Assembly: GCF_017873855.1 (NCBI RefSeq)
Contig: NZ_JAGGKR010000001.1
Coordinates: forward strand, 1,178,001 to 1,242,000
Length of the DNA: 64,000 nt
DNA from: Methanolinea mesophila
GTDB taxonomy: Archaea > Halobacteriota > Methanomicrobia > Methanomicrobiales > Methanospirillaceae
Direction of reading: 5' to 3'
Positions 3,780 through 43,063 of this stretch are shown here, piece after piece. Both the position numbers and the translations under genes were made by a program. Below the pieces are notes generated by a model. The model was not told where the DNA came from and did not search any database. It saw only the letters and a program-made list of their open reading frames with translations. Position 1 is the stretch's first letter, and every line of letters starts with the position of its first letter.

Positions 3780-3854
3780 TGGGCCCGATGCGATTTGAAC
3801 GCATGACCGCCCGGTTATGAGCCGGGCGCTCTGACCGGACTAAGCTACGGGCCC
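3780..3854 (-). tRNA. tRNA with CAT anticodon (elongator Met or Ile2)
   Basis: A 75-nt cloverleaf with a GGGCCCG acceptor strand, a D-stem with TAGCTTAG, an anticodon stem CCCGG/CCGGG around the loop CTCATAA, and a T-loop GTTCAAATC. The anticodon is CAT. The G1-C72 pair argues against an initiator tRNA, which in archaea begins with A1-U72. Elongator methionine and the isoleucine tRNA read after C34 modification (agmatidine) both remain possible; the GGGCCC acceptor slightly favours Ile2. CCA is not encoded. A TTTATG element near 3885 may be its TATA box. Confidence 0.92.
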
Positions 3855-4110: not shown

Positions 4111-4183
4111 CGCCGCCAACAGGACTCGAACCTGTGACATGCTGGTTAACAGCCAGCCACTCTACCAACTGAGTTATGGCGGC
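4111..4183 (-). tRNA. tRNA-Asn (GTT)
   Basis: A 73-nt cloverleaf with acceptor GCCGCCA/TGGCGGC, discriminator G73, D-arm AACTCAGTTGGTAGAG, anticodon loop CTGTTAA (anticodon GTT) between CTGGC/GCCAG-type strands, and T-loop GGTTCGAGTCC. No intron and no encoded CCA. An AAGGCACAT motif sits 5 nt before the 5' end (positions 4189-4197) and a CTTTAAAAAC element near 4216-4225 is a fitting TATA box. Confidence 0.95.
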
Positions 4184-14674: not shown

Positions 14675-14675
14675 A

Positions 14676-14681
14676 TTTTTT
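14676..14681 (+). terminator. T-tract terminator after mptA
   Basis: Six T residues, then CTTTT, immediately after the mptA stop codon; a plausible archaeal terminator separating mptA from the frh promoter. Confidence 0.4.
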
Positions 14682-14743
14682 CTTTTGTCCGCCGTTTCGA
14701 AACCACTGCAAAGGGCACCCCGTTTAAAGGCTGAACAGAACTT

Positions 14744-14783
14744 AAATCAAAAAGCGCAGCGTTTTTAAGGGTTTTTTTGATTT
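14744..14783 (+). repeat. 10-bp inverted repeat upstream of frh
   Basis: AAATCAAAAA (14744-14753) and its exact complement TTTTTGATTT (14774-14783) are separated by 20 bp. It lies between mptA and the frh TATA box, so it could be a terminator hairpin for mptA or a regulator site for frh. Confidence 0.5.
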
Positions 14784-14822
14784 TGATGCCGGCACCCCCC
14801 TTATCAAAGTCAAAATAAGCCC

Positions 14823-14868
14823 AATTCTCGGTTTTTCCGGGTAAGAGAAGGCGGGGGAGCCGAGAATT
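14823..14868 (+). promoter_or_regulatory. 9-bp inverted repeat just upstream of the frh TATA box
   Basis: AATTCTCGG (14823-14831) and CCGAGAATT (14860-14868) are exact complements with a 28-bp spacer, ending 12 bp before the TATA box. Half-sites at this position are where archaeal activators and some repressors bind. No regulator is known to me for this sequence. Confidence 0.45.
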
Positions 14869-14880
14869 ATTGCAAAGCAG

Positions 14881-14890
14881 ATATATAATA
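14881..14890 (+). promoter_or_regulatory. TATA box of the frh operon
   Basis: ATATATAATA, the strongest TATA match in the gap before frhA. A start about 26 bp downstream, near 14911, would give a leader of about 100 nt that begins with the 13-bp palindrome at 14914. Confidence 0.6.
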
Positions 14891-14913
14891 GGAGCCGGTT
14901 AAACTATTTTGAA

Positions 14914-14952
14914 CGTACTAAGTACGGTCAACCATCTTTCTACGGAAAGATG
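14914..14952 (+). promoter_or_regulatory. Palindrome and hairpin in the frh leader
   Basis: CGTACTAAGTACG (14914-14926) is a 6-bp perfect palindrome around one base at the predicted transcript start. Seven bases later CATCTTTC-TACG-GAAAGATG (14933-14952) forms an 8-bp stem with a tetraloop. Both would be in the 5' leader of the frh message, or the palindrome could be an operator at the start site. Confidence 0.5.
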
Positions 14953-15010
14953 TGCGTGGATTTACGACGGTATCGTGATATGAACAACCCAATAAAATGA
15001 GGCGATAATA

Positions 15011-16378
15011 TTGTCGAAAGTTGTAGAGATTTCCCCAACCACGAGGCATGAAGGACATTCCAAGCTCGTCCTCAAGGTGAATGATGAGGGCATCATCGAG
15101 CGTGGTGACTGGCTTTCCATTACTCCCGTCAGGGGAGTAGAAAAGCTTGCCATTGGCAAGACCATGGACCAGGTTCCAAAGATTGCATCCCGTGTCTGTG
15201 GTATCTGCCCGATTGCCCACACCCTTGCAGGTATCGAAGCGATGGAAGGTTCCATCCGCTGCGAGATCCCCGAGGATGCAAAGCTGCTCCGGGTCATTCT
15301 CCAGGCGGCCAACCGCCTGCACAGCATTGCACTGCACAACATCCTGATTCTGCCCGACTTTTACATTCCGGGCACCGAGACCAAGATCAACCCGTTCACT
15401 CCCGAAGAACCGGTCCGGAGCGTTGCCAAGCGCATCCAGCGGATCCGTGAGATCGGGCAGACTATCGGTGAGATCGCCGGCGGTGAAGCGGTTCACCCGA
15501 GCAACCCCCGTGTGGGTGGGATGTACAAGGCCTGTTCCGAACGGGCGGTCTACAAGATGTACGACCTGGCCAAAGAGGGACTTACCCTTGCCCACCAGCA
15601 GATGGAGTTCATGCTGGCCGTGCTGAACAACATGAAGAAGCGCGACTGGACGGACGTTGCCGGGAAGCAGATCCCCCTGCCGAAGACTCTCGGATACCAC
15701 GACCTGGGCTACATGGCATCGCACCCGATGTATGCAAGCTCCAACCTTGACGAGATCCCCGGGTGGGACCCCGACCGGTGGACCGACGTCAGACCGTGGG
15801 ACTGGTACATGGGCGAAGTCGAGGTCAGCCTCGCAGATCCGAGCTACCCGATCGGTGGAACCTCGCCTGTCGGCACCAAGGCCAACCCCCAGATGGAGGC
15901 CTGCACCGGTGTCCCGCTCTATGACGGCGCACCCGTCGAGGTCGGACCCCGTGCCCGGCTGGCGACCTACAAGAACTTCACTGAGAAGGGAACGTGGGCC
16001 CAGCACGTCGCACGTCAGCTCGAATACACCGACTGCTGCTACACTATGATCAATGCACTCGACGCGTACAACCCGTCAGGCAAGGTCCTTGCCGACTGCA
16101 TCCCCCAGGGTGACGGATCCATGGGCTGGGCGGCAAACGAGGCCCCGCGTGGTTGTGACGTCCACCTGGCAAAGGTCAAGGATGGACGGGTCCTCTGGTA
16201 CGAGATGCTCGTGCCGACCACCTGGAACTTCCCCACCTGCAGCCGTGCACTGACCGGTGCCCCGTGGCAGGTTGCCGAACTGATCGTCCGGGGATATGAC
16301 CCGTGCGTCTCCTGTGCGACCCACATGATCGTGGTCGATGAGGACAAGAGGATAGTTGCCCAGAAACTCATCCAGTGA
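15011..16378 (+). CDS. frhA: F420-reducing [NiFe]-hydrogenase, alpha subunit FrhA
   Basis: The 455-residue large subunit holding the Ni-Fe site that oxidises H2 to reduce coenzyme F420. The N-terminal nickel motif RVCGIC has cysteines 63 and 66, and the C-terminal motif DPCVSCATH has cysteines 432 and 435; a protease should cut after His438, removing 17 residues. Both C-terminal positions are cysteine, so this is not a selenoprotein. The start is TTG at 15011, supported by GAGG 8 bp upstream and the family N-terminus SKVVEISPTTRHEGH. First gene of frhADGB. Confidence 0.96.
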   Translation: MSKVVEISPTTRHEGHSKLVLKVNDEGIIERGDWLSITPVRGVEKLAIGKTMDQVPKIASRVCGICPIAHTLAGIEAMEGSIRCEIPEDAKLLRVILQAANRLHSIALHNILILPDFYIPGTETKINPFTPEEPVRSVAKRIQRIREIGQTIGEIAGGEAVHPSNPRVGGMYKACSERAVYKMYDLAKEGLTLAHQQMEFMLAVLNNMKKRDWTDVAGKQIPLPKTLGYHDLGYMASHPMYASSNLDEIPGWDPDRWTDVRPWDWYMGEVEVSLADPSYPIGGTSPVGTKANPQMEACTGVPLYDGAPVEVGPRARLATYKNFTEKGTWAQHVARQLEYTDCCYTMINALDAYNPSGKVLADCIPQGDGSMGWAANEAPRGCDVHLAKVKDGRVLWYEMLVPTTWNFPTCSRALTGAPWQVAELIVRGYDPCVSCATHMIVVDEDKRIVAQKLIQ

Positions 16379-17722: not shown

Positions 17723-18601
17723 ATGGGAACTGAACTTGGCGTTTACAAAACCTGTGTTTCGGCACGCAGCACCAGCAAGGAGATCCTGAAGAAGGCCCAG
17801 GACGGGGGCATTGTCACTCAGCTCTTCGCCTATGCACTGGACGAGGGCATCATCGACGGAGCCATCGTTGCAGGCCCGGGACCCGAGCCCTGGAGGCCGA
17901 TGCCCATGGTGGCACTCACCTCCGAGGAGCTGATGGCGTCCCGCGGAACGAGGTACAACCTCAGCCCGAACGTTGCCCTGATCAAGGAAGTCACCAGGAG
18001 CTACGGCCTTGACAAGGTCGGTATCGTAGGCACCCCCTGCCAGATGCAGGCGGTCCGCAAGGGCCAGCTGTATCCCGCAGGACTCAGGGACGTCCCCGAC
18101 AAGATTGCACTGGCAATCGGCATCTTCTGCATGGAGAACTTCCCCTACCAGAGCATCAAGCAGCTCGTTGAAGACCACGCAGGAATGGCACTCCCGGCCG
18201 TCAAGAAGATGGAGATTGGCAAGGGCAAGTTCTGGGTATACGGAGAACGCGGACAGGTCGTAACCCTCCCGCTCAAGGTGACCCACAAGTACGAACAGCC
18301 CGGATGTCATGTCTGTCTTGACTACGTGGCAAACCTCGCCGATGTCTCAACCGGTTCCGTCGGGTCCCCCGATGGCTGGAGCACCGTCTTTGTGCGGAGC
18401 AAGAAGGGAGACGACATCTGGAGCAAGGCGATGGCAGCCGGCTGCTTCGAGACCAAGCCGATCGAGCAGGTCAAGCCCGGCCTGGAACTGGTGAGCAAGC
18501 TCGCAAACGAGAAGATCTCCAAGAACCAGAAGACCGTCGAGTCCCGTGCGACCTTCGGGGTCAACAAGGCGCTCCGTAACCCCTACGTATCTCCCAAATA
18601 A
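17723..18601 (+). CDS. frhB: F420-reducing hydrogenase, beta subunit FrhB
   Basis: The 292-residue flavoprotein subunit that passes electrons from the iron-sulfur clusters via FAD to coenzyme F420. It has KKAQDGGIVTQLFAYAL near the N-terminus, the VGIVGTPCQMQA motif with a cluster-ligating cysteine, IGIFCMENFPY, and GCHVCLDYVANLADVSTGSVG in the F420/FAD region, all typical of the FrhB/FdhB family. A GAGGTG ribosome site precedes the ATG. Codon use is GC-rich, unlike the AT-rich 5' part of frhG. Last gene of the operon; a T8 run follows the stop. Confidence 0.96.
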   Translation: MGTELGVYKTCVSARSTSKEILKKAQDGGIVTQLFAYALDEGIIDGAIVAGPGPEPWRPMPMVALTSEELMASRGTRYNLSPNVALIKEVTRSYGLDKVGIVGTPCQMQAVRKGQLYPAGLRDVPDKIALAIGIFCMENFPYQSIKQLVEDHAGMALPAVKKMEIGKGKFWVYGERGQVVTLPLKVTHKYEQPGCHVCLDYVANLADVSTGSVGSPDGWSTVFVRSKKGDDIWSKAMAAGCFETKPIEQVKPGLELVSKLANEKISKNQKTVESRATFGVNKALRNPYVSPK

Positions 18602-42992: not shown

Positions 42993-43063
42993 TGCATCGA
43001 CCGGGAATTGAACCCGGGCTATAGGCTTGGAAGGCCTAAGTCATGCCACTAGACCATCGATGC
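42993..43063 (-). tRNA. tRNA-Gly (TCC)
   Basis: A 71-nt cloverleaf with acceptor GCATCGA/TCGATGC, A73, anticodon arm TAGGC CTTCCAA GCCTA (anticodon TCC) and T-loop GGTTCAATTCC. An AAGGCACAT motif (43066-43074, minus strand) precedes it, the same sequence as upstream of tRNA-Asn, and an AGTAATAATAGATC element near 43091-43103 is the likely TATA box of the Gly-Val pair. Confidence 0.95.

Follow-up and report, generated by a model that had tools for sequence, protein, structure and literature searches.

A conserved, probably cis-acting RNA leader precedes the frhADGB operon across the Methanomicrobiales

The frhADGB operon of Methanolinea mesophila (order Methanomicrobiales; genome of 2.66 Mb in two contigs) is preceded by a conserved 5' leader of the mRNA, located at positions 14909–15010 on the plus strand of the window, by which we mean the whole 64,000-nucleotide stretch of this genome that was analysed. 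The leader is matched end to end by a covariance model, R1, which was built from 12 leaders, and it is kept in all six families sampled within the order, in relatives including Methanolinea, Methanoregula, Methanofollis and Methanocorpusculum. On the comparative sequence evidence, we consider it on balance probable that this stretch of about 100 nt is an order-wide cis-acting RNA leader serving frhADGB alone, through which a trans-acting partner sets translation, stability of the mRNA, or both; the leader would thereby probably control the amount of enzyme.

The first gene of the operon, frhA (15011–16378, plus strand), was recognised by TIGR03295 at 602 bits (cut-off 392.5), and NCBIfam supports the names frhA, frhD, frhG and frhB as well as that of mptA upstream, in agreement with an earlier, sequence-only reading that had named the operon frhADGB. 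TTG at 15011 is the frhA start codon, and a UUG start is nearly universal among the loci compared. The core promoter, as read from the sequence (14870–14889, plus strand), consists of a purine-rich element and a TATA-like box, TATATAAT (14882–14889), the centre of which stands 28 nt before the CGTAC of the first leader hairpin, P1. This distance is 26–32 nt in 73 of 93 leaders, with a median of 29 nt, the outliers being mostly cases in which the crude score chose another AT-rich octamer. Archaeal promoters have a usual spacing between TATA box and transcription start, and because the TATA-to-P1 distance fits it, P1 is predicted to form the 5' end of the mRNA; since the distance is also constant, a transcript start beyond 14952 is unlikely.

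The P1 hairpin (14910–14930, plus strand) reads UGA-a-CGUAC/GUACG-g-UCA, with its core at 14914–14918/14922–14926, and the palindrome CGTACTAAGTACG (14914–14926) is part of 11-nt arms (14909–14919/14921–14931) that are 91% complementary. The core CGUAC/GUACG was present in 93 of 97 leaders from six families, and 98.2% of the P1 pair cells were paired on alignment A4, which was used instead of alignment A3, since A3 includes matches that are antisense or fortuitous and was kept out of the counting. The P1 loop varies in length among the 82 leaders with the motif, measuring 3 nt in 50, 4 nt in 15 and 5–20 nt in 17, where the 20-nt loop could reflect two motifs paired by chance, and several P1 loops of family f2 contain an inner stem, for example UGAA/UUCA. 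Three leaders of family f3 (L026, L027 and L067) are without the P1 core, and one f4 assembly (L076) carries unrelated sequence at this part.

Downstream of P1, the P2 hairpin (14933–14952, plus strand) has an 8-bp stem, CAUCUUUC-UACG-GAAAGAUG (in DNA, CATCTTTC-TACG-GAAAGATG), and is followed by a small hairpin, P3 (14955–14966, plus strand), which reads CGU-GGAUUU-ACG in the window and mostly GUGU/ACAC elsewhere. The most conserved part of the leader, absent from the sequence-only reading, spans 14970–15007. Here, motif D (14970–14987, plus strand) reads GUAUCGU-GAUAU-GAACAA, with the consensus GUANNGC-N5-GAACA and a nearly constant spacing of 5, and the Shine-Dalgarno region is UGAGGCGAUA (14998–15007, plus strand); motif D and then the Shine-Dalgarno sequence GAGGCGAU are almost invariant before the UUG start. 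Motif D was found in 93 of 97 leaders by regular expression, a way of counting that omits variants, as L011 and L051 have the motif by eye. A GAGG-like core is present in all 97 leaders, and the next base is C in 91, A in six and U in none. With the usual archaeal 16S tail, a U after GAGG would lengthen the Shine-Dalgarno match; because U never follows and the start is nearly always UUG, the frhA start looks deliberately weak. As a hint of usage elsewhere, a crude Shine-Dalgarno list of 92 candidate starts, many of them false, gave T 16, A 10, G 7 and C 4 after GAGG. Near 17723, the frhB start has a U-type ribosome-binding sequence, GAGGTGAT, and that of frhA (14999–15006 in the window) is always GAGGCGAT or GAGGAGAT.

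These counts derive from a search of 199 genomes of the order, of which 184 gave an frhA match. We took 109 frhA upstream regions, the loci being picked for spread over genera rather than at random, and counted 97 of them for motifs, leaving out eight loci from other families (L095–L102), three second copies (L068, L103 and L104) and one containing N (L045). The wider comparison was kept within the phylum. Identity of the leader to that of the window was 69.4% across 60 family loci, compared with 49.9% for shuffled leaders, and 62.8% across 31 loci from five other families, compared with 49.3%; the 150 nt of DNA upstream of the promoter, in contrast, showed 47.5% identity compared with 46.6% when shuffled (60 family loci). 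Conservation thus runs from the promoter to the start codon.

Base-pairing in the leader was assessed on two alignments. In a model-fitted alignment of 49 distinct leaders, which is biased towards structure, 90.6% of cells were paired compared with 83.8% after shuffling, and 13 of 20 pairs had changed on both sides, with none of 500 shuffles reaching either measure or any other. In these 49 leaders, all eight pairs of P2 (83.5% of cells paired) and all four of P3 (88.1% of cells paired) had changed on both sides. An alignment made from sequence only, with 12 leaders, pointed in the same direction with a smaller signal: double-sided changes occurred in three pairs (3 of 500 shuffles), and pairing held in 94.9% of cells. 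P3 also carries a U-A to C-G change between the window and its relatives. Compensatory changes were found in P2 and P3 within the window's own family and nowhere in the P1 core, which is invariant, so that covariation cannot prove P1. RNAalifold, run on a MAFFT alignment of 84 leaders, predicted P1 alone, because MAFFT misplaces the variable P2. Order-wide conservation of the leader, together with the compensatory changes in P2 and P3, supports the earlier proposal that the leader hairpin is an mRNA element.

Thermodynamic predictions give a weaker signal. The window's leader folded alone has a z score of -1.38, and the P2–P3 segment has a mean z of -0.77 over 88 leaders, near zero in families f4, f5 and f6, compared with -0.28 for the control; with one leader per genus, the Stouffer score was -3.7 compared with -2.28 for the upstream control. 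Predicted folding of P2–P3 is therefore weakly better than that of shuffles, and the stability of P2 and P3 appears weak outside the window's own family. The Shine-Dalgarno core is predicted to be unpaired about half of the time (mean 0.45, 93 leaders). A helix UAUCGC/GCGAUA, which forms in the minimum-energy fold of the window's leader, pairs perfectly in 20 of the 86 leaders scored, and among 47 leaders none of its pairs showed changes on both sides; masking of the Shine-Dalgarno sequence by this helix was rejected as a general feature for want of compensatory change, since the NN of GUANNGC vary without compensation.

R1 is highly specific to this locus. In the window's own genome, it has one real match (107.6 bits, E 1.7e-24), the next best scoring 13.1 bits (E 6.4), and in the family it has matches at E 0.01 or better in 61 of 71 genomes, 62 in all. 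All 62 adjoin frhA, 47 as judged by coordinates and 15 by downstream sequence (13 by script and two by eye). Four of the ten family genomes that lack an R1 match belong to genus g10, whose leaders are divergent yet detected by other means. The motif D pattern occurred in 66 of 199 genomes of the order and its reversed control in none; in a database of 84,980 species it marked 74 stretches, a minority of them in bacteria or Lokiarchaeia, which look like chance matches.

Searches for known elements gave no match to the leader. Rfam release 15, run over the whole window at the gathering score, returned an archaeal SRP RNA (2346–2657) and three tRNAs (3780–3854, 4111–4183 and 42993–43063), all on the minus strand, and nothing in the leader; the leader region searched at E up to 10 gave only chance matches, which involved models of miRNAs and snoRNAs and scored well under the cut-off, and 15 leader loci from several families gave no match at E up to 0.5. 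A known RNA family was accordingly rejected across the 4227 Rfam families. No antisense RNA to the Shine-Dalgarno region was found elsewhere in the genome at three or fewer mismatches in 21 nt. A leader-peptide attenuator was discarded, since the own-family AUG-AGG-CGA-UAA loses its AUG (to ACG or AAG) or its stop in other leaders, as was a termination attenuator, there being no U-tract and no T run longer than 3 in 14909–15010.

The sequence-only reading had pointed to four repeats within 14744–15010, and each of them is indeed present in the sequence where it had been placed. Two lie upstream of the promoter and outside the conserved element: a 10-bp inverted repeat, AAATCAAAAA/TTTTTGATTT (14744–14783; arms 14744–14753/14774–14783), and a 9-bp inverted repeat, AATTCTCGG/CCGAGAATT (14823–14868; arms 14823–14831/14860–14868). 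Two perfect inverted repeats of at least 9 bp within 14675–14905 exceed the shuffled mean of 0.10 (none of 300 dinucleotide shuffles reaches two), and one of at least 10 bp there has a P of 0.037 (300 dinucleotide shuffles). Allowing one mismatch per arm, both arms of the 14823/14860 repeat were found in none of 68 own-family loci, its 3' arm alone in four, and both arms of the 14744/14774 repeat in two of 68, in reverse order. The upstream repeats are thus above chance in the window yet not conserved, whereas the 8-bp leader hairpin P2 is borderline when the window is considered alone (P 0.053, 300 dinucleotide shuffles) yet conserved. Conservation of the arms among relatives, to which the sequence-only reading had tied function, therefore divides the repeats: the leader hairpins are kept, P2 and P3 through compensatory changes, and the upstream arms are not. 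The suggestion that an upstream repeat is an operator fails on this lack of conservation, the surrounding DNA being at shuffled identity. A further, imperfect inverted repeat with 19-nt arms (84%) lies at 14769–14821 in the AT-rich DNA that separates mptA from the promoter, where T runs may represent the mptA terminator.

Several frhA copies lie outside the typical setting. Methanomicrobiales-type frhA genes occur in two g84 genomes outside the class, on the Methanosarcinales side, where they are 76–79% identical to that of the window with frames intact (G296:C29 and G292:C48; L095, L096, L195 and L196), and on a contig labelled Methanosarcina (L158), also with an intact open frame. They likely reflect horizontal transfer with a decaying leader. 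Their leaders are closest to those of f3 and degenerate: L095 has alterations in P1, in motif D and in the Shine-Dalgarno spacer, L096 keeps only the last part of the leader, and in L158 one P1 arm is disrupted and UUG is missing. Such degeneration would fit lost constraint where the partner is absent, in a comparison that comprises three cases and a putative donor family, f3, that is itself variable. Second, divergent frhA-like copies with 55–60% identity (L103 and L104; G017:C1:2096061-2097377 and G169:C25:9746-10558) are without the conserved leader, and one of the two has an in-frame TAA. One f3 genome contains an additional frhA copy (L068; G008:C29:8482-9846), which has motif D and the Shine-Dalgarno sequence but lacks the P1 core. 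Methanocellaceae-like frhA (f14) has a different leader, with only GAGGCGGUAUAU-UUG common to both.

Together, we propose that, throughout the Methanomicrobiales, the frhADGB mRNA starts with a cis-acting leader some 100 nt long that serves no other operon. The leader would act as RNA, since its stems are kept although their loops differ in length, and since sequence conservation extends as far as the start codon. P1, at the 5' end of the mRNA, may serve as a landing platform or as a protecting cap, and motif D with the Shine-Dalgarno region as the control site of translation initiation, the start so controlled being a weak one, with UUG and a Shine-Dalgarno sequence that consistently mismatches the expected 16S tail. 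P1 and motif D may be recognised by a trans-acting partner, for which an RNA-binding protein is the likeliest candidate and a small ligand a less likely one; this step we hold less firmly than action as RNA. The partner would adjust FrhA synthesis, and perhaps the life of the mRNA, to H2, formate or redox supply. What the partner and the signal might be is a guess, and the choice of signal was guided by the response of frh mRNA to H2 in Methanothermobacter and by the central place of Frh in this order. According to PMC3600222, frh mRNA rises under H2 limitation in Methanothermobacter, and PMC2686161 tabulates three Methanomicrobiales genomes, all with Frh and one with Mvh, which makes Frh the entry point of H2 to methanogenesis in the order.

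A bolder version of this proposal, which we regard as doubtful, holds that the leader represents an archaeal class of RNA sensors for hydrogen metabolism, in which H2, F420 or the redox state is read and translation of the hydrogenase is set. Tentatively, the state could be read either directly, as by a riboswitch, or through an RNA-binding protein specific to the order. Were this true, the class would have existed since the ancestor of the Methanomicrobiales.

Other readings of the leader fit parts of the same evidence. It is unlikely, though worth weighing, that the leader is a constitutive element with no regulatory role, shielding an mRNA of very high abundance and helping the 30S subunit to bind. 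A 5'-terminal hairpin in all families would suit that role, as would the position of Frh as a central enzyme of these organisms and the differing strength of P2 and P3 between families; however, conservation of the invariant CGUAC/GUACG and of motif D goes far beyond what a protective hairpin needs, and the weak UUG with its constant Shine-Dalgarno mismatch looks like restraint rather than a boost. We find it rather improbable that P1 is a DNA operator, with a repressor dimer bound to CGTAC-N3-GTACG over the transcription start and the remaining leader ordinary. Sites over the transcription start are a common place for archaeal repressors, and P1 is a near-invariant palindrome, its core free of covariation, which overlaps the expected start site and keeps the same spacing to the TATA box. 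Nevertheless, the half-sites stand between 3 and 15 nt apart, or further, a variation that few dimers would accept; conservation continues for 100 nt to the start codon; and each of the genome's six other palindromes of this type is located within a long open frame, so that a regulon of P1 palindromes was rejected.

We give equally little credence to a riboswitch that would bind a small molecule or ion, such as F420, Ni2+ or a redox-linked cofactor, and gate translation. The conserved unpaired core between the hairpins and beside the Shine-Dalgarno sequence, its fixed spacing and its single-copy cis position all recall such elements, but no known class matches, the leader stands before one gene only, so that gene context names no metabolite, and, with the masking helix UAUCGC/GCGAUA unsupported, a conserved expression platform is missing. 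Last, the view of the sequence-only reading that control lies in an upstream inverted repeat acting as operator, plus the leader hairpin, is highly improbable, for although the upstream repeats exceed shuffled expectation in the window, they are not kept in 68 family loci, in DNA no more alike than shuffled sequence.

Among open-licence papers, we found no description of a structured frh leader in the Methanomicrobiales, although a report elsewhere is possible, and no report of control of Frh after transcription start. Few archaeal cis-regulatory RNAs have been described, and the leader would represent a new archaeal RNA family; order-wide and placed at frhA only, it offers a compact and testable way into the question of how H2 uptake is adjusted in these archaea. 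Stem-loops at the very 5' end stabilise bacterial mRNAs such as ompA, and P1 resembles them in position, but the frhA stem is near-invariant in sequence and is accompanied by a second conserved motif at the Shine-Dalgarno sequence. Candidate structured RNAs and riboswitches of bacteria and archaea, as gathered in Rfam (e.g. PMC2864571, the available text of which mentions neither frh, hydrogenase nor Methano-) share with the leader a cis position, covarying hairpins and conserved unpaired bases beside the ribosome-binding site; the frhA leader differs in matching none of the 4227 families, in preceding one gene only and in having no known ligand. Long leaders are also found in Methanosarcina, where PMC2838876 gives 51–137 nt for seven other gene clusters, and the review PMC3600222 names the CODH/ACS (cdh) leader (its reference 61), an example of 5' leader control of methanogen mRNAs. 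There, a central operon of methanogenesis is reportedly controlled through a long 5' leader once transcription has begun, much as we propose for frhADGB, but the cdh leader belongs to another order and another gene, whereas the frhA leader is conserved in sequence across its whole order and carries a hairpin at its 5' end.
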